In this document: one piece after another, positions 10,749-54,175 of the stretch | How positions within the stretch are numbered: the stretch's first letter is position 1 | How the letters are laid out: the number at the start of each line of letters is the position of its first letter | Source of the DNA: Tannerella sp. | GTDB taxonomy: Bacteria; Bacteroidota; Bacteroidia; Bacteroidales; Tannerellaceae | NCBI GenBank assembly: GCA_031276175.1 | Contig: JAISNP010000109.1 | Coordinates: 20,208 to 84,207 of the forward strand | Length of the DNA: 64,000 bases | Direction: 5' to 3' | Position numbers and translations under genes: made by a program | Notes under the pieces: model-generated | Databases searched by the model: none | Told to the model about the DNA's origin: nothing | The model's input: only the letters and a program-made list of their open reading frames with translations

Positions 10749-12065
10749 ATGGGAAAGTACAGGCGGTATAAGAACAAAATGGAGATGTTTCTCTCCAGCG
10801 AAAGAGGGAAACGTGTGCTGAACTTCTGTTACAGTTGGGGAGCATCCATTGTCGTGATCGGGGCAATGTTTAAGATTGTGCACTTGCCGTATGCAAATCA
10901 GATTCTATGCATATCCCTGATTTGCGAGGCAGTGGTATTCTTTATTTCGGCATTTGAACGGCCGGCGAGCGAATACAATTGGGAAGAAGTATTCCCCGTC
11001 CTCAAGTCTAAAAATCCGCTGGATCGTCCGGACTTCGGCAAAGAAGGCGCTACGTCCGGCGGCGGAGTGATAGTCGGAGGCATGGTAGCCGGCGGCGGCA
11101 TTGTCGGAGGCGACGCTGTCGAAGGTGGTGTTGTCGGAGGCGGCGCTGTTGGAGGTGGTGTTGTTGGTGGTGGCATTGTCGGGGGCGGTGTTGTCGGCGG
11201 TGGCATTGTCGGTGGTGGCATTGTCGGAGGCGGTGTTATTGGCGGCGGTGTTGTCGGAGGACAAGGTGGCGGCGGAACTGTCATTATCGGTAATATCCCG
11301 CAGGGCGGCGACGCAATAGCAGATGGAACAGTAGCGGGAGGAGCAATATCAGGCGGCGCAGTGGGCGGTGGCACGGTTGTCATCGGCGGCGGAGCAACGC
11401 CGGTACAGCGACCCACGCCCGAACAGACTGCCGACGCAGGACTGAAAACGATGGGACTGAACGTTTCCGAAGAAGACGCGCAAACACTCGCCGCCAGTAT
11501 CAAAAAGCTGGGCGAAGCAGCCGAACAGATTGCCAAAATGGCCGATATGACCGAAGCCACCCAATCGTATGTCGAGCAGATTACGACGGTAGCGCAAAAT
11601 CTGGAACGCTTCAACACCGTGGCGCTTTCGCTGGGCGAAGTGTCGGACTCACTGGTCTCCTCGTGCAAAGCCATATCGGGAACGCAAAACGAAGAAAATC
11701 CCGGAGACATGACACCGGGCTACGTGCAGCAGATGGAATACCTGAACGAAAACCTGTCGGAACTGAACAGGTTCTACGAAACACAACTGAACGGACTGCG
11801 TCCGCAAATGGATACGATTCACCACATCAATGCCGGACTGAGCCGCATCCGCGACATGTACGACAGTTCGGTTGTGGACAGCAGCGCTTTCCGCGTCGAA
11901 AACGAACGCATGGCGCAGTTACTCGGACAGCTCAACCAGGTATACAGCCGCCTGTTGCAAGCCATGACGCTCAACGCAAATCCGGGCGGCATACCTTACC
12001 CGCCACAGCAACCGCCTTATCCGGGCGGATACCACCAGTCGCCATATTCCAATCCGGTGCGGTAG
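10749..12065 (+). CDS. gldL: Type IX secretion inner-membrane motor protein GldL/PorL with Gly-rich repeat insertion
   Basis: N-terminal two-TM segment YSWGASIVVIGAMFKIVHLPYANQIL, position between gldK and gldM; C-terminal coiled-coil region. Confidence 0.9.
   Translation: MGKYRRYKNKMEMFLSSERGKRVLNFCYSWGASIVVIGAMFKIVHLPYANQILCISLICEAVVFFISAFERPASEYNWEEVFPVLKSKNPLDRPDFGKEGATSGGGVIVGGMVAGGGIVGGDAVEGGVVGGGAVGGGVVGGGIVGGGVVGGGIVGGGIVGGGVIGGGVVGGQGGGGTVIIGNIPQGGDAIADGTVAGGAISGGAVGGGTVVIGGGATPVQRPTPEQTADAGLKTMGLNVSEEDAQTLAASIKKLGEAAEQIAKMADMTEATQSYVEQITTVAQNLERFNTVALSLGEVSDSLVSSCKAISGTQNEENPGDMTPGYVQQMEYLNENLSELNRFYETQLNGLRPQMDTIHHINAGLSRIRDMYDSSVVDSSAFRVENERMAQLLGQLNQVYSRLLQAMTLNANPGGIPYPPQQPPYPGGYHQSPYSNPVR
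11055..11400 (+). repeat. About 15-bp coding repeat (GGGxV pentapeptides) inside gldL
   Basis: Translation VGGGAVGGGVVGGGIVGGGVVGGGIVGGGIVGGGVIGGGVVGG. Confidence 0.9.
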
Positions 12066-19786: not shown

Positions 19787-22700
19787 ATGAAAACAGGAAA
19801 AAAACGAATTATTATATCGGCGGTCGCGTGCATCGCCGCGCTGTGCATCTGGGTGGTGTGGGAACGCACGGCTTCCGCCACGCGAATCGCGCTGGTGAAC
19901 TTCCAGCCGTTTCAGACGTCGAGCATCGTCAAGTCGAACGACGACCCGTTTGTGCGCTACGACGCCGTTCCCCTCGAAGAGACGGCGAAGCTCGGCCGCT
20001 ACGACTTTATGCTGGCCTTCGGCATGGGCCTGCAAATGACGGTCGAACAGCGCGCCGCCATCCGGGAGATGGCCGACCGAGGGCTGCCCGTCTACGTCTA
20101 CGGCGCCACTTCGCCCGAAAACAACATCTGCAACCTCGACAGCGCGGACATGCAGTGCATCGGCGACTACCTGAACCACGGCAACAAACGCAACTACCGG
20201 AGCCTCGCCCGATACGTCCGGCAGCGCATCGACGGAAAGCGGTTTTTCGTCAACGCGCCCGACACGGCCTTCCGAAGCGCCTCCGACGTGCTTTATCATC
20301 TGGACGAAAACGTAGCCTTTGCGCAGGTGGCCGACTACGAAGCGTATCTTAAGGAAAACGGTTTCTACACGCCCTCCGCGCCGCGGATTGCCGTCGTCGG
20401 AGGGCTGAACGATCCTTTCGGCGGAAACCGCGACAATATAGACAGCCTGATTGTCGCCCTCCAGCGTGACGGGATGAACGTCTATCCCGTGCTTTCGTTC
20501 ATGAAACGCCTGGATTTCCTGCGGGATATACAGCCCGACGCCGTGATTTACTTTGCGCACGGACGGATGGTGATGGGGCAGGCCGACGAGGCCGTCGAAT
20601 GGCTTAAGGCGCGCAACATCCCCGTTTTTGCCCCGCTCTCGCTCCTGCAGACTAAGGAGGAATGGGAAGCCGACGCGATGGGCATGTTCGGGGGATTCAT
20701 GTCGCAAAGCATCGTCATGCCCGAACTCGACGGGGCGATTTATCCCTACGTGCTGAATGTGCAGGAAACAGACCGCGACGGGCTGTACCTCTTCAAGGCG
20801 ATACCCGAACGGCTGCATACGTTTACGCAGATTGTAAAAAACTTCGTCGCCCTGAAACAAAAGCGCAATGCCGACAAGAAGATTGCGGTGTATTACTTTA
20901 AGGGCGCCGGGCAATCCACCCTCGCCGCGCAGGGATTAGAAACGGTTCCCGCGCTGTACAACTTCCTGAAAAGGCTTCAGGCGGAGGGCTACCGGGTGGA
21001 CGGACTGCCTGCCGACGTCCGCAGTTTCGAGAAACTGCTGATGACGCAGGGCGCCGTCCTCAGCCCTTATGCCGAGGGCGCGTTCGACGATTTCATTGCG
21101 CACGGGCAGCCGGCGACGGTCGAAAAGGCGGAGTACGAATCGTGGGTAGCCCGCTCGCTGCCGGAAGCGCTTTATGACGACGTGGTGCGCGCATACGGCG
21201 AAGCGCCGGGCAGCTACATGGCCGTCCGGCAGGACGACCGCGACTTCATCGCCGTAGCCCGCATTCGGCTGGGCAACATCGCGCTGCTTCCACAGCCGAT
21301 GGCCGGAACGGGTAGCGACGCCTTTGCCGTGGTGCACGGCACGCGCTCCGCTCCGCCGCATCCCTACATCGCTTCTTACCTCTGGACGCAGCACGACTTC
21401 AAAGCCGACGCCATCCTGCATTTCGGTACCCACGGGAGCCTCGAATTTACGCCGCAGAAGCAGGTAGCCCTTAGCGGCAACGACTGGCCGGACTGCCTCG
21501 TGGGCGCCGTGCCGCATTTCTACTACTATACCATCGGGAATGTCGGCGAAAGCATGATGGCCAAACGACGCGCCTATGCCGCGACCGTCTCCTACCTCAC
21601 CCCGCCTTTCACGGAAAGCCGGATGCGCGGACAGTTTAAGGCTTTGCAGGACAAAATACGCGCCCTGCACGCCGCCGCCGAAAACCGCCGCCCCGCCGCC
21701 GCCCTCGAAGTGAAGAAAATCGCAGTAGCGATGGGGTTGCACCGCGACCTTCGGCTGGACAGTGCGCTGACCGTGCCGTATTCCGACGACGACGTGGCAC
21801 GCATCGAAAACTTTGCCGAAGAGATTGCAAACGAAAAGATGACCGGGCAGCTTTACACGTCGGGCGTACCCTACGACGACGCGAAGATCCGCTCCACCGT
21901 GCTTGCCGTCAGCGCCGACCCCATTGCATACGGCCTTGCCGCGCTCGACCGCCTGCGCGGGACGGTGGACGACGAACAGTTGAAGAACAAACCGCTTTTC
22001 ACGCAAAACTACCTCGTCCCGGCGCAGCAGCTTGTCGGGCGTATACTGGACGGCGTCCGTGCCGACGACGAATTGATATGCGCCGTAGCCCGTATCACTC
22101 CCGACGAACTGCGCGAAGCCAAAACCATCCTCGCCCCCGTCCGGCGCGCGATGCCGTCGGGCATGTCTGCCGGCAGCGCGCCTTCCGCCTCCACCGGCGC
22201 GGCAGGGGGAAAGAAACCCTCCTCCGGCGGCGGCCACCCCTCGTGGATACCGAAGATAGGGAAACGGCCTGCCGAAACGACTTCCTCCGCGCCGGCGACG
22301 CCCGACACCGCGAAAACGACGCCCGCCATGCCGCCCGCCGTCCCTCAACCTCCCGCATACACCGCCGAGCAGAAAGCTCGCGCCCGCGCCGTATCGGAGG
22401 TCGAACGCGCCGTTCGCTACGTGACGGCCTGTAAAAAAGCGCTGGAAGAAAGTCCCGAACAGGAGCTTCGCTCGCTCCTGAACGCCCTCGCCGGCGGATA
22501 CGTAGCCCCCTCGTCCGGCGGCGACGCCGTGGCGAATCCGAACGCCCTGCCCACCGGACGCAACCTCTATGCCGTCAACGCCGAGGCGACGCCCTCCGAA
22601 ACGGCCTGGGACAAGGGCGTAGCGCTCGTCGACGCCCTGCTGGAACAGTACAAAAAGCAGCACGGCGATTATCCCCGCAAGGTCAGCTACACGTTCTGGA

Positions 22701-24046
22701 GCAGCGAATTTATCGAAAGCGAAGGCGTCACCGTTGCGCAGGCGCTCTATATGCTGGGCGTGGAGCCGGTGCGCGACAGCTACGGGCGCGTGTCCGACCT
22801 GCAACTCATCCCCTCCTCCCGGCTGGCGCGACCGCGCATAGACATCGTCGTGCAAACGTCGGGACAGTTCAGGGATTTGGCAGCCTCCCGCCTTGCCCTC
22901 ATAAGCCGCGCGGTCGAAATGGCGGCCTCCGCCGGCGACGACGACGCGGGCAACTTCGTTGCCGCCGGCGCCGTAGATACCGAGCGGCTGCTGGTCGAGC
23001 AGGGCGTCCCGCCGAAAGCGGCGCGCGAGATGTCGCTGCACAGAATCTTCGGCGGCGTCAACGGCATGTACGGAACGAACATACAGGGCATGGTAACGGC
23101 GGGCGACCGCTGGGAGACCGAACAGGAAATTGCCGATACCTACATCCGCAACATGGGCGCCGTATACGGCAGCGATAAAAGCTGGGGGCAGTATCACGAC
23201 GGGCTGCTGCGCGCCGTGCTCCGGCATACCGACGTCGTCGTCCAGCCGCGCCAGAGCAATACCTGGGGCGCGCTCAGCCTCGACCACGTCTACGAATTTA
23301 TGGGCGGCCTCAACCTGGCCGTCCGGCAGGTGACGGGCAAAGACCCCGACGCCTGGTTTGCCGACTACCGCAACCGCAACCACGTCCGGATGCAGGAACT
23401 GAAAGAGGCCATCGGGGTGGAAGCGCGCGCCACCGTCTTCAACCCGGCCTATATCCGCGAAGTAATGAAAGGCAACGCTTCGAGCGCGGCGCAAATCACC
23501 GAAGTAGTGACGAACACCTACGGTTGGAACGTGATGAAGCCGGACGTAATCGACCGGGAGATGTGGGACAAGTTGTACGACGTATACGTAAAAGACGAAT
23601 ACGCCCTTGGGACGGAAGACTTTTTCAGGCGCGAAAACCCCTTCGCCCTTCAGGAAATCACAGCCGTGATGCTCGAAACGGCACGTAAAGGCATGTGGCA
23701 GGCCGGCGAACAGCAGTTGCGCGACATCGCCGACCTGCATGTCCGTCTGGTGGATGAATTCGGCCCGTCCGCCTCCGGCTTTTCCGGCGGGAACGCCCGG
23801 TTGCAGGACTTCATCGCCCGCAACGCCGACCCGCAGGCCGCAGGCGAATACCGTCAACAGCTGCGAAAAATGCAGACCTCCGCTCCCGACGACGACACGC
23901 AGCGTGGGCTTACGCTGAAAAAAGACGGCGACGCGCAGCCCGGCGACGACGGGAAAGGCGTGCCGAACGGCGCGTACATCGTTCCGGCCATACTTGTCCT
24001 GTTTGTCGTCCTGCTGGCGCTCCTGCGGAAAAAAAGGAAGGGTTGA
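19787..24046 (+). CDS. hmuS: CobN/Mg-chelatase-like HmuS (heme-utilisation) with N- and C-terminal TM anchors
   Basis: CobN-like HFGTHGSLEFTPQKQVALSGNDWPD, DRWETEQEIADTYIRNMGAVYGSDKSWG; C-terminal TM IVPAILVLFVVLLALLRKKRK; operon context. Confidence 0.88.
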   Translation: MKTGKKRIIISAVACIAALCIWVVWERTASATRIALVNFQPFQTSSIVKSNDDPFVRYDAVPLEETAKLGRYDFMLAFGMGLQMTVEQRAAIREMADRGLPVYVYGATSPENNICNLDSADMQCIGDYLNHGNKRNYRSLARYVRQRIDGKRFFVNAPDTAFRSASDVLYHLDENVAFAQVADYEAYLKENGFYTPSAPRIAVVGGLNDPFGGNRDNIDSLIVALQRDGMNVYPVLSFMKRLDFLRDIQPDAVIYFAHGRMVMGQADEAVEWLKARNIPVFAPLSLLQTKEEWEADAMGMFGGFMSQSIVMPELDGAIYPYVLNVQETDRDGLYLFKAIPERLHTFTQIVKNFVALKQKRNADKKIAVYYFKGAGQSTLAAQGLETVPALYNFLKRLQAEGYRVDGLPADVRSFEKLLMTQGAVLSPYAEGAFDDFIAHGQPATVEKAEYESWVARSLPEALYDDVVRAYGEAPGSYMAVRQDDRDFIAVARIRLGNIALLPQPMAGTGSDAFAVVHGTRSAPPHPYIASYLWTQHDFKADAILHFGTHGSLEFTPQKQVALSGNDWPDCLVGAVPHFYYYTIGNVGESMMAKRRAYAATVSYLTPPFTESRMRGQFKALQDKIRALHAAAENRRPAAALEVKKIAVAMGLHRDLRLDSALTVPYSDDDVARIENFAEEIANEKMTGQLYTSGVPYDDAKIRSTVLAVSADPIAYGLAALDRLRGTVDDEQLKNKPLFTQNYLVPAQQLVGRILDGVRADDELICAVARITPDELREAKTILAPVRRAMPSGMSAGSAPSASTGAAGGKKPSSGGGHPSWIPKIGKRPAETTSSAPATPDTAKTTPAMPPAVPQPPAYTAEQKARARAVSEVERAVRYVTACKKALEESPEQELRSLLNALAGGYVAPSSGGDAVANPNALPTGRNLYAVNAEATPSETAWDKGVALVDALLEQYKKQHGDYPRKVSYTFWSSEFIESEGVTVAQALYMLGVEPVRDSYGRVSDLQLIPSSRLARPRIDIVVQTSGQFRDLAASRLALISRAVEMAASAGDDDAGNFVAAGAVDTERLLVEQGVPPKAAREMSLHRIFGGVNGMYGTNIQGMVTAGDRWETEQEIADTYIRNMGAVYGSDKSWGQYHDGLLRAVLRHTDVVVQPRQSNTWGALSLDHVYEFMGGLNLAVRQVTGKDPDAWFADYRNRNHVRMQELKEAIGVEARATVFNPAYIREVMKGNASSAAQITEVVTNTYGWNVMKPDVIDREMWDKLYDVYVKDEYALGTEDFFRRENPFALQEITAVMLETARKGMWQAGEQQLRDIADLHVRLVDEFGPSASGFSGGNARLQDFIARNADPQAAGEYRQQLRKMQTSAPDDDTQRGLTLKKDGDAQPGDDGKGVPNGAYIVPAILVLFVVLLALLRKKRKG

Positions 24047-24049
24047 GGT

Positions 24050-24757
24050 ATGGAAGAGGTCGTCACGATACTGCTTTTTTTCATACTGGTAAACTGCCTG
24101 TTCAAGCTCAGCTTCTGGAAATGGTGGCAGGCGGCGGCGTTCGGCCTCGTCTGCGCCCTCTTTGTAGTCGGCAGTTGCCGGTGGGCGATTTTGCAGTCCA
24201 AAACGCAGCTGGCCGACTTGCTCCGCAATGCGGGGGCGATGCAGGATGCGGCCGTGTGGGTGACGGTGGAGTCGGCCGTCTGCTTTGCGTTCTGCTTTGC
24301 GAGGCTGCGCGAGGTATTCGGGCGTCCGCACAGGGCGAGGCTGCGCGTGTTGCACGCATATCCGGGGCTGCTCGTGTTCCCGGCGCTGTTTTATCTTCAG
24401 ACGCAGGCCGTTTTTCATTTGCCGGGCACGGATTTTATGGTTGTATCAACCCTGCTGGCCGCCTTTGTTTTCGCTGCCGTCCCCCTGTCGGCAGCCCTGC
24501 TCAGGCGGATGTATCCCGACGAGGCGCTCCGGCTTGAGGCGCATTTTCTCGTCAGCCTGTTCGTATGTATCACCGGACTGATTGCGACCGTGAACGGGAA
24601 CGTCGCGTATGCCGCCGTCGAACAGTCGTCGGACGCCGGGGCGATGCTGCTCACGCTCGGCCTTTTTGCCCTGTTTTTCGCGGCGGGCGTCTTAATCCAC
24701 AAATACAAATGGAGGTTCGGGAAATCCCGGAACTCCGGCACATTCATTCACAAGTAA
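24050..24757 (+). CDS. hmuT: Integral membrane protein, HmuT position
   Basis: Multiple TM helices; located between hmuS and the MotA/TolQ/ExbB-like gene. Confidence 0.65.
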   Translation: MEEVVTILLFFILVNCLFKLSFWKWWQAAAFGLVCALFVVGSCRWAILQSKTQLADLLRNAGAMQDAAVWVTVESAVCFAFCFARLREVFGRPHRARLRVLHAYPGLLVFPALFYLQTQAVFHLPGTDFMVVSTLLAAFVFAAVPLSAALLRRMYPDEALRLEAHFLVSLFVCITGLIATVNGNVAYAAVEQSSDAGAMLLTLGLFALFFAAGVLIHKYKWRFGKSRNSGTFIHK

Positions 24758-24771
24758 TATATTATGACATT

Positions 24772-25374
24772 ATGGAGATAATTACAAAAGCTTTGTTTTG
24801 GGTAGCCAACAGCCTGCTGATTCCGGACATTCTTATTCTGCTGGCGCTGTTTTTCCGTTCCCTGCTGCTGACCGGGAGTTTTTATAACCAGTACATGGTG
24901 AAGCGCAAAAACGACAGGGCGCTGGGCGATAAAATCAAGCGGCTGACGCCCGCCGGCATCGCGGAGCTGAAAGCCGCCTTGCCTGCAAGAGACGACTCCC
25001 TGTTCGTCAAATACCTTCGCGACCTGCTCACCTCCCCTCCGGGCGAGGCGTATGCCGACTTTCTCATTTCCGGCTTCGAAAACGAGGCGGGTAAAGACCT
25101 GTCCCTCTCCCGCATCCTGACCAAGATAGGGCCGGTGCTCGGACTGATCGGCACCTTGATTGCGATGAGTCCCGCGCTGGTCGGGCTTTCCGCCGGCGAC
25201 ATCGGCGGGATGGCATACCACATGCAGGTCGTGTTCGCCACCACGGTCATCGGGCTGGTCATAAGCGCCGTCGGGCTGGTTACCCTCCAATTCAAGCAAC
25301 GCTGGTATGCAAAGGAGGCCGACAGCCTCGAATACGTATCCCGCATACTCACGCTCAACCCCTCCGGGATATGA
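24772..25374 (+). CDS. hmuU: MotA/TolQ/ExbB proton channel family protein (HmuU position)
   Basis: LSRILTKIGPVLGLIGTLIAMSPALVGLSAGDIGGMAYHMQVVFATTVIGLVISAVG; start ATG 24772. Confidence 0.85.
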   Translation: MEIITKALFWVANSLLIPDILILLALFFRSLLLTGSFYNQYMVKRKNDRALGDKIKRLTPAGIAELKAALPARDDSLFVKYLRDLLTSPPGEAYADFLISGFENEAGKDLSLSRILTKIGPVLGLIGTLIAMSPALVGLSAGDIGGMAYHMQVVFATTVIGLVISAVGLVTLQFKQRWYAKEADSLEYVSRILTLNPSGI

Positions 25375-25715
25375 AAAAGCCCTCCCGACGCAAAAACAGG
25401 CTCACGGCCGAAGACGATTCCGATCCCCTGAGCGTAGCAGTCAACCTCTTCGACGTGGCGATGGTCTTTGCCGTGGCGCTGGTGGTAGCCACGGTGATGC
25501 ACCTGAACATGACGGAAGTCTTTACGCAGGAAGACTTCACCGTCGTAAAGAATCCGGGGAAAGAAAACATGGAAATCATCACCCGTGAAGGCGGCAAAGT
25601 AAGCCGGTACACGCCGTCGGACAATCCCTCCACCGGCAAAAAAGGCAAACGTGTCGGCATAGCCTACGAACTGGAGAACGGGGAAATCATCTACGTACCG
25701 GAAACGGAGAAGTAA
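25371..25715 (+). CDS. hmuV: DUF2149-type protein (HmuV position)
   Basis: DDSDPLSVAVNLFDVAMVFAVALVVATVMH; last gene of the hmu-type operon; overlaps hmuU stop. Confidence 0.75.
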   Translation: MKKPSRRKNRLTAEDDSDPLSVAVNLFDVAMVFAVALVVATVMHLNMTEVFTQEDFTVVKNPGKENMEIITREGGKVSRYTPSDNPSTGKKGKRVGIAYELENGEIIYVPETEK

Positions 25716-25835
25716 CGGGGAAAAGCGGGGATGCGCGCACGGCAAAAACGCCGGACAGCATTGCCCCGCCGCACGGGACGGGGGAGTTTGTCGCACGGGA
25801 CACTCCGCGGAGGCAAATTCAACGGAATTTTTCGT

Positions 25836-26662
25836 GCCGGAGGTTCCGGGAACAAAAATGCTCGGGGAAATTTTCGTCCCGGAGGTTCCGGGAACAAAAA
25901 TGCTCAGGGAATTTTTCGTGCCGGAGGTTCCGGGAACAAAAATGCTCAGGGAAATTTTCATGCCGGAGGTTCCGGGAACAAAAATGCTCGGGGAAATTTT
26001 CGTGCCGGAGGTTCCGGGAACAAAAATGCTCAGGGAAATTTTCGTCCCGGAGGTTCCGGGAACAAAAATGCTCGGGGAAATTTTCGTCCCGGAGGTTCCG
26101 GGAACAAAAATGCTCGGGGAAATTTTCGTCCCGGAGGTTCCGGGAACAAAAATGCTCGGGGAATTTTTCATGCCGGAGGTTCCGGGGACAAAATTGCTCA
26201 AGAAATTTTTCATGCCGAAGGTTCCGGGGACAAAATTGCTCAAGAAATTTTTCATGCCGGAGGTTCCGGGGACAAAATTGCTCAAGAAATTTTTCATGCC
26301 GGAGGTTCCGGGGACAAAATTGCTCAAGAAATTTTTCGCTCCGAAGGTTCCGGAGACAAAATTGCTCAAGAAATTTTTCGCTCCGAAGGTTCCATGGACA
26401 AAATTGCTCAAGAAATTTTTCATCTCGGAGGTTCCGGGAACAAAAATGCTCAGGGAAATTTTCGTCCCGGAGGTTCCGGGAACAAAAATGCTCGGGGAAA
26501 TTTTCGTCCCGGAGGTTCCGGGAACAAAAATGCTCAGGGAAATTTTCGTCCCGGAGGTTCCGGGAACAAAAATGCTCAAGAAATTTTGTGTGCCGAAGTC
26601 TCCGGGAACAAAAATGCTCTGGAAATTTTATGTGCCGAAGTCTCCGGGAACAAAAATGCGCA
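25836..26662. repeat. 42-bp tandem repeat array, about 20 units, two unit subfamilies
   Basis: Consensus gccggaggttccgggaacaaaaatgctc(g/a)gggaaattttcgt; central block carries ggggacaaaattgctcaagaaatttttcatg. Confidence 0.97.
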
Positions 26663-26753
26663 TAGAAGTCGGAAAAAACAAAAGATTTTTCACCGGATCG
26701 CGTCCGGTAATTCCGCTAATCCCGCTCCGGTACGCCGCGATAGGGCGCGCGCT

Positions 26754-28076
26754 TCATATCCGCCTGTCGCGCCACGGTGCGAAACGGAAATACAGCACGC
26801 TCCCTGCGAACATGCCGGCAAAATAAACCGGCTCGGCAATGAAACAGACGTGTACGGGCAGATGCATCCGTATCCCCGCCACGTAGATAAAAAGCGTATA
26901 GACGACAAGCGTCGCCATCTCGACGACCAGAGCCGGGCGCGTATTGCCGGCGCCCGACAGTGCATTGAAGACCACGCTTGCCGCCGAAGCTACAAGCGTC
27001 GCCACGGCAACCACCTGCAACGAGGCTACGGAATCGGCTATCAGCGACGCATCGTTCGTATAAATACGCAATACGGCATGGGGAAACAGTCCGGTCACGG
27101 TCGAACAGACAAGCATCACGCCGAGCGACATCATCGCCGTCCGGCGCACAAGGGGAATGACCTGCCCGCTGCGCCCGGCGCCCATCGTATTACTGACAAG
27201 CGTATTGACGGCGGTGGAAAACGCATTGACGGGGATGAACAGCACGATGTACATGCTGCGGACAATATTGGCCACCGCCAGCGACCGCAGTCCGAGCCGC
27301 TCGACGACGAGGAAGAACAGGAAAAAAGTACTCATCGACACGAAATGCTGCATCATCATGAAAACGGAAACCCGGAGGATACGCTTCATCAGGCCGAAAT
27401 CGAACACACGCAGCCGCGTCAGGCCGTACTTCCGGCGGTCGACGGTCAGAAAAGTATACGTCAGGAAAAACACGACCGAAACGCCTTCGGCAACCACCGA
27501 CGCCAGCGCCGCGCCGCGCACGCCCATCTGCGGAAAGCCGCCGTGCCCGAATATCAGCGCCCGGTCCAGCGCCACATTCGTCAGCGACATCAAAAGCGCA
27601 TTGAACGTAAGCGCCCTCGTGCGCGTAAGGCCTACAAAAAGCGCGCGGAACATCACGTGTACAAACGAAAAGAAAAAACCGTACACCCGTATATCCAGAA
27701 AATCCATCGTCGCCTCCAGCACGGCTTCCGACGAAATCAGCCACCGCATCAGCTCCGCGCCCGTCCGGCGGGTGAACGCAAACAACCCTGCGGCAAGCAT
27801 AAAAAGAAACGTAATTCCTCCGAACAGTACCGGCCCCACGGCGGCAAACTGCCCTTCGCCGTTCCGCCTTCCGATGATGATCTGCGCACCCATGCTGAAC
27901 CCGAACGCAATCGTGAAGGCGCAGATGTAATACAACCCGCCCATCGCCGAAGCGCCCAGTTCCACTTCGCCCACCCTTCCCAGAAAAGCCGTATCGGTTA
28001 CGTTGATGACATTCTGCGCCAGCAAACTCAGCAACACGGGGAAGGCGACCTTTAATATATCCCTTTTCCTGTACAT
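26754..28076 (-). CDS. MATE family efflux transporter
   Basis: PVLLSLLAQNVINVTDTAFLGRVGEVELGA; 12-TM pattern. Confidence 0.9.
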   Translation of the reverse strand: MYRKRDILKVAFPVLLSLLAQNVINVTDTAFLGRVGEVELGASAMGGLYYICAFTIAFGFSMGAQIIIGRRNGEGQFAAVGPVLFGGITFLFMLAAGLFAFTRRTGAELMRWLISSEAVLEATMDFLDIRVYGFFFSFVHVMFRALFVGLTRTRALTFNALLMSLTNVALDRALIFGHGGFPQMGVRGAALASVVAEGVSVVFFLTYTFLTVDRRKYGLTRLRVFDFGLMKRILRVSVFMMMQHFVSMSTFFLFFLVVERLGLRSLAVANIVRSMYIVLFIPVNAFSTAVNTLVSNTMGAGRSGQVIPLVRRTAMMSLGVMLVCSTVTGLFPHAVLRIYTNDASLIADSVASLQVVAVATLVASAASVVFNALSGAGNTRPALVVEMATLVVYTLFIYVAGIRMHLPVHVCFIAEPVYFAGMFAGSVLYFRFAPWRDRRI

Positions 28077-32813: not shown

Positions 32814-35755
<2,942 letters not shown>

Positions 35756-40665: not shown

Positions 40666-40838
40666 GTTCTTTTAATTTAAAATTGAAGATAAAGTTCGAA
40701 AAATACCGCACTCCCGGCAGCCTGTACGGCGCGTCGGTTGATATATCCGCTTAATGCTTTCGTAATCAATAAAATTTAGTCGCACATATTCAATCGCTCG
40801 ATTCTCCGTCCGCTATGCTGCGACCGGTTTTTCAACCG

Positions 40839-40922
40839 CGAGGTTGAAAGACCGAACCTCAAGGTTAAAAGACCGAACCTCGAGGTTGAAAGATCGAACC
40901 TCGAGGTTGAAAATCCGTTTTC
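40839..40922. repeat. 21-bp tandem array (4 units)
   Basis: cgaggttgaaagaccgaacct x4 with the 12-bp palindrome AACCTCGAGGTT. Confidence 0.95.
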
Positions 40923-47370: not shown

Positions 47371-47472
47371 AAAACATGCAGGAGATGGTTTTCATCTCCC
47401 ACGAGATGGTTTTCATCTCCCACGAGATGGGTTTCATCTCCTACGAGATGGTTTTCATCTCCTGCATGTTTT
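47371..47472. repeat. 21-bp tandem hairpin array (4 units) bounded by 17-bp inverted arms
   Basis: gagatggttttcatctcccac x4; AAAACATGCAGGAGATG ... CATCTCCTGCATGTTTT. Confidence 0.97.
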
Positions 47473-53797: not shown

Positions 53798-54175
53798 ATG
53801 AATACAACTCCGTTACCGGACGGGATGTATTTGGTTTCCGGGCAAGTTTGTCCGGGAAAGCGAGGATATGCCTGTCTCCATGTGTTAATTTCCGGCCGCA
53901 GCTTGCAGGAAGCCTTTAGCCGCAGGATAATCGTCGGACGCAAACTTGCCGCAAACATTTATTCCCCTAATAATTACCTTTCGCAGCCTGCGGGAAGCCT
54001 TTATCCGCATGACGATCATCTCCCGCAGCCTGCGGGAAAACATTATCCGCATGAGAACCGTCCTCTGCAGCCTGCGGAATGTTTTTTACCGCATGCACAC
54101 CGTGTAACACAGCGGCGCTATAATATATATGTATACGGAACGATTAACGGTAACTTCAAAATAAAATCATCATGA
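53798..54175 (+). CDS. Hypothetical ORF spanning 42-bp periodic repeats
   Basis: MNTTPLPDGMYLVSGQVCPGKRGYACLHVLISGRSLQEAFSRR then 14-aa periodic PQPAGKHYPHENR units. Confidence 0.35.
   Translation: MNTTPLPDGMYLVSGQVCPGKRGYACLHVLISGRSLQEAFSRRIIVGRKLAANIYSPNNYLSQPAGSLYPHDDHLPQPAGKHYPHENRPLQPAECFLPHAHRVTQRRYNIYVYGTINGNFKIKSS
53897..54100. repeat. 42-bp periodic array (about 5 units)
   Basis: cgcagc(c/t)tgc starts at 53897, 53939 (degenerate), 53982, 54024, 54066; TCCCGCAG-C-CTGCGGGA palindrome. Confidence 0.8.

Follow-up and report, generated by a model that had tools for sequence, protein, structure and literature searches.

The 42-bp tandem array at positions 25834–26673 of the window (the whole 64,000-nucleotide stretch of Tannerella sp. 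DNA that was analysed) is probably the minisatellite core of a family of non-autonomous, MITE-like, palindromic intergenic elements. The dispersal of the family, its tail module, the edge variants shared by different arrays, the dyads with compensatory changes and the absence of any coding sign are directly supported. We infer that the element moves by transposition and that hairpins drive the expansion of its arrays. Two alternating dyads, P1 and P2, set about 21 bp apart, would form serial hairpins on either strand; copies that end in tail modules would spread from one intergenic site to another; and slippage or unequal recombination between units, together with exchange with sister arrays, would give rise to the A-B-A block order. 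Arrays occur in all kinds of intergenic region and show no A/T phasing, and the window array has no internal terminator-like site, so a mobile hairpin-rich spacer is favoured over a barrier; the element is most probably a spacer that the cell tolerates. Both the dispersed family and the genome-wide period, described below, go beyond the original prediction, which considered a single array.

Unit-by-unit alignment gives twenty 42-bp units, and TRF calls the array at 25824–26659 (period 42, 19.9 copies, 92% matches, score 1122), which is far above chance, as 20 dinucleotide shuffles of the window gave scores of at most 59 and 0.2 arrays per shuffle. A degenerate left-edge unit (CGGGACACTCC...CAAATTCAACGGAATTTTTCGT; 25792–25833, plus strand), which is like a 41-bp subfamily from other sites of the genome, precedes units 1–8, which TRF and unit comparison assign to subtype A (25834–26169, plus strand). 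By unit comparison, and also on the plus strand, units 9–14 are subtype B (AAAATTGCTCAAGAAATTTTTC; 26170–26421), A returns in units 15–18 (26422–26589; 15–17 are A and 18 is an A/B-like hybrid), and units 19 and 20 are edge variants (26590–26673), the last of which continues into the tail. The predicted 20-unit array with A-B-A blocks and degenerate terminal units is thus confirmed by TRF and by unit-wise comparison. The 42-bp units are all contiguous, with no CRISPR-type unique spacers between them. Four more intergenic arrays of period 21 or 42 bp, unrelated in sequence to the main array, are present in the window at 35457–35712, 40834–40912, 47382–47462 and 53982–54077.

To the left of the array, Pfam identifies a CobN-like gene (19787–24046), a MotA/ExbB gene (24709–25374) and a DUF2149 gene (25371–25715), all on the plus strand, the last being the immediate neighbour, and to its right a MATE efflux transporter gene (26754–28076, minus strand), so the array does lie, as had been stated, between convergent hmuV-like and MATE genes. 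The CobN-ExbB-DUF2149 order matches what we take to be an hmu-like operon, by comparison with the P. gingivalis hmu operon, and this together with Pfam makes "hmuV" a plausible name for the DUF2149 gene. The nearest public loci to the window are in "Tannerella" MAGs, which we read from their isolate names as being of termite-gut origin. In several relatives (L030, L031, L044, L047, L049, L054 and L057), the orthologous MATE gene is followed directly on its 3' side by arrays of 21–22 or 41–44 bp units with unrelated sequences. The 3' side of the MATE gene was considered as a special array site and rejected, since the array rate there is about that of other intergenic regions.

Arrays related to that of the window are present in the same genome on C5, C118, C90, C111, C47/C27, C144, C9 and C108, giving at least nine loci in all, and every family locus that is uncut by a contig end lies between genes. 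C47 and C27 look like the two contig ends of one site; several family copies stop at contig ends, and the true copy number may be higher. Five or more congeners (G002, G023, G024, G027 and G031) carry related arrays, and none was found in the other genera searched. Unit 18 of the window array is letter for letter a unit of C118, with its nearest within-array neighbour four bases away; a single base separates unit 19 from a unit of C5, with the nearest neighbour of unit 19 within the array seven bases away. The proposal that the A-B-A blocks arose by duplication or conversion is therefore supported, these two units being closer to units of other loci than to their own neighbours, and such sharing of edge units supports conversion between loci or the spreading of array edges. 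None of the other arrays examined holds a close copy of subtype B (the nearest has six differences), so this subtype probably arose and multiplied within the window array.

The tail module, GAAGTCGG-AAAAAACAAAAGATTTTTC-ACCGGATCGCGTCCGGT, occupies about 44 bp at 26665–26708 on the plus strand and was located by pattern search; read from the MATE side it contains a terminator-like hairpin. A pattern derived from the right edge of the window array, GAAGTCGNNAAAAN{0,1}NARAA, has four matches in the 2.79 Mb genome and none in a reversed control, and all four are at ends of family arrays: C85 (the window, at 26665), C118 and both ends of C111. Exact matches to ACCGGATCGCGTCCGGT itself (26692–26708) were confined to two places in the genome, C85 and C111. 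Only one side of the window array bears the tail, and several other family arrays lack it. At C111 (L076:1–411) the two tails lie within a 71-bp perfect inverted repeat whose left copy begins exactly at the contig end, and this left repeat could be a real terminal repeat or an assembly fold-back. The orientation of the C111 array flips mid-array. Short modules are common to the flanks of different arrays in G027, and no common flank was seen at the other family arrays on C144, C9, C108 and C90. No target-site duplication was readable at the family arrays and no partner transposase was found; a search by the tail-end motif alone recognised no insertion sequence bearing it.

Each 41/42-bp unit carries a pair of dyads spaced about 21 bp from each other. 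The first, P1, has the sequence CCCGGAGnCTCCGGG (CCTGGAG-CTCCAGG in G031), and P2 occurs as AATTCC-GGAATT, AATACAC-GTGTATT and AAAATTCC-GTG-GGAATTTT. In the window array P1 is good and P2 is imperfect. Among 18 array consensuses the dyad cells pair in 81.5% of cases, against 30–63% when slid by one to three columns, in an alignment (A2) in which the gap of the 41-bp units was set manually in the middle of P2, a choice that favours pairing. These consensuses contain 24 compensatory double changes, and their covariation score is 0.240 against a shuffle mean of 0.157, a value reached by none of 500 shuffles; related rows inflate this shuffle test, and the slide control is the safer one. On either strand the predicted RNA folds more stably than its shuffles (z-scores −6.5 and −8.3), and because of this an effect of the array on transcripts that cross it is possible. 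Rfam gave only sub-threshold matches, so a known RNA family is not supported, and a scan for sigma-70-type promoter-like sites found none. An origin from a phage or plasmid was rejected, as no match was found.

The closest known elements are the minisatellite-bearing MITEs BrickBuilt (23-nt) and 464/PgRS (41-nt) of P. gingivalis. BrickBuilt is an intergenic P. gingivalis MITE with 23-nt tandem arrays of variable copy number, present in 19 copies in ATCC 33277; it has leader and tail modules, long stem-loops by prediction and, in some copies, short inverted ends; its ends resemble ISPg1/ISPg9, its promoter activity has been demonstrated, and BrickBuilt_8 is flanked by convergent gcvT and DUF2149 genes (PMC4596501). 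The 464/PgRS element, as cited in the same paper (PMC4596501), is MITE-like, with 10–20 copies and 41-nt tandem repeats, and 22-nt arrays in P. gingivalis are also mentioned there. Like BrickBuilt, the window family belongs to the same order, has uninterrupted short-unit arrays without spacers, occupies many intergenic sites within a single genome (at least nine) and has a non-repeat tail outside the array at C85, C118 and C111 that is absent at several arrays. The window array resembles BrickBuilt_8 in lying on the 3' side of a DUF2149 gene; the parallel is striking but could be coincidental. Unlike the 23-nt unit of BrickBuilt (AGAYCATARTATCCTCTCRTRTG), the unit here is 42/41 bp, and no similarity to the printed consensus was seen; BrickBuilt ends are like ISPg1/ISPg9, and the window family has no known related IS. 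Some BrickBuilt copies have inverted ends, and in the window family an inverted repeat was seen only at C111, with its left copy at a contig end. The window family works like BrickBuilt and is not BrickBuilt. Its 41-bp unit length in most copies is that of 464/PgRS, and 464/PgRS comes from another family of the same order.

Bacterial intergenic minisatellites are usually regarded as slippage accidents of arbitrary unit length. In about 299 kb of the window's own genome (20 contigs chosen by number plus the window, so that the period statistics are those of sampled stretches), 31 of the 33 intergenic arrays found by TRF have periods of 20–23, 42, 63 or 83–85 bp. When each sequence cluster is counted once and short units must have about three copies, arrays within these bands number 22/22 in the own genome and 36/42 in 400 kb taken from G030, a closed congener, the bands covering 18% of the periods 10–200 and 33% of 18–90. 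Genus-wide, with genes called by a simple self-written codon-model caller, 120/146 intergenic arrays are in band against 10/37 coding arrays (Fisher p 4e-10, a descriptive value, since the bands were set after the first lists had been seen), and in 400 kb of other Bacteroidota the count is 1/9 intergenic arrays. Array density is uneven, with few in the other congeners sampled; extrapolation would give about 300 arrays in the own genome and about 650 in G030. Higher-order repetition of a 21- or 41-bp unit is expected to yield multiples such as 63, 84 and 123.

We put forward tentatively, as an idea that is less likely than not to hold, that termite-gut Tannerella-like bacteria carry hundreds of unrelated intergenic satellites whose period is quantised at about 20.5–21 bp (21, 41/42, 63, 84, 123–126, 168), near whole pairs of helical turns; no report of such a period was found in the open-access literature. 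With a common period and no detectable shared sequence, descent from one array is hard to invoke, and a mechanism or selection is indicated. If true, the period would imply either an unknown fixed-step amplification machinery or selection for a fixed dyad geometry, the window array being one product. The 22-, 23- and 41-nt repeats of P. gingivalis may be the same phenomenon, and this cultivable relative makes the question testable. We also note that the G030 stretches (L129–L148) are only about 66% coding by the simple caller and contain dense 41/42-, 84- and 123-bp arrays with several shared families, and that an ACCGGATGGCGATCGGC-like motif at 41-bp steps in G000:C104:195–416 is another 41-bp array.

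The spacing of the dyads about 21 bp apart, kept through compensatory change, and the recurrence of the same period in unrelated sequences would also fit a helically phased DNA-binding or nucleoid-organising array, in which a dimeric protein occupies dyads repeated at intervals of two helical turns and its binding is the reason why the array is maintained. This is unlikely, since most arrays share no unit sequence with others (29 singletons among 40 own-genome arrays, including nine family-selected ones), so that no single sequence-specific binder fits, and there is no 10–11 bp A/T phasing. Curvature by phased A-tracts was rejected, as no 10–11 bp A/T autocorrelation was found.

A bidirectional 3' transcription barrier between the convergent genes, the role suggested in the original prediction, is less probable still. 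It would accord with the convergent placement, the stable predicted RNA folding of both strands and the terminator-like hairpin on the MATE side; however, a scan for terminators gave none within the array, that hairpin being in the adjoining tail, and arrays are not concentrated in convergent regions and are at least as common in divergent ones. In the sampled own-genome stretches they occupy 9/21 divergent, 9/53 co-directional and 3/13 convergent intergenic regions, and in G030 13/23, 39/107 and 4/24, respectively. The barrier role is thus not supported.

Like REP/BIME repeats, the window family consists of dispersed, intergenic palindromic units in tandem; unlike them, it is strictly tandem with a fixed 41/42-bp period and has no link to its own genome's RAYT (REP-associated transposase). 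That a RAYT drives the array, as with REP/BIME repeats, is quite improbable. The genome does have one Y1_Tnp (RAYT-like) gene on C38, flanked by REP-like palindromes and with a 41-bp palindromic array nearby, but those palindromes differ from the repeats of the window family, and no REP/RAYT-type transposase flanked by the family's own repeats was found. G015, a 99% complete genome, shows seven intergenic arrays within 29 kb and lacks Y1_Tnp, as do G002 and G023, which carry the family. The C38 gene lies at 1429–1992 within L108:699–2519 (G000:C38), with repeated GCGAGATTCTATCTCGC-type palindromes on both sides, and the 41-bp palindromic array that precedes it is unrelated to the window array.

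The long open frames noted earlier (plus strand 25731–28055 and 25834–26826, minus strand 24882–26579) exist mechanically, with at most one stop in five of the six frames through the array, and a repeat gene on either strand, with predicted peptides such as VPEVPGTKMLGEIF, is the least credible reading: repetition of a stop-free 42-bp unit leaves a frame open at no cost, the 41-bp unit of most relatives breaks any frame, pN/pS is 0.71–1.68 across the six frames (51 units, three loci) with purifying selection in none, and a Pfam scan of the plus 25834 and minus 24882 ORFs gave no match. The 42-bp array is therefore probably non-coding, and the non-coding view taken originally is upheld by pN/pS and by the 41-bp relatives. 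Within a coding region, the window contains a 30-bp tandem repeat at 11101–11260.
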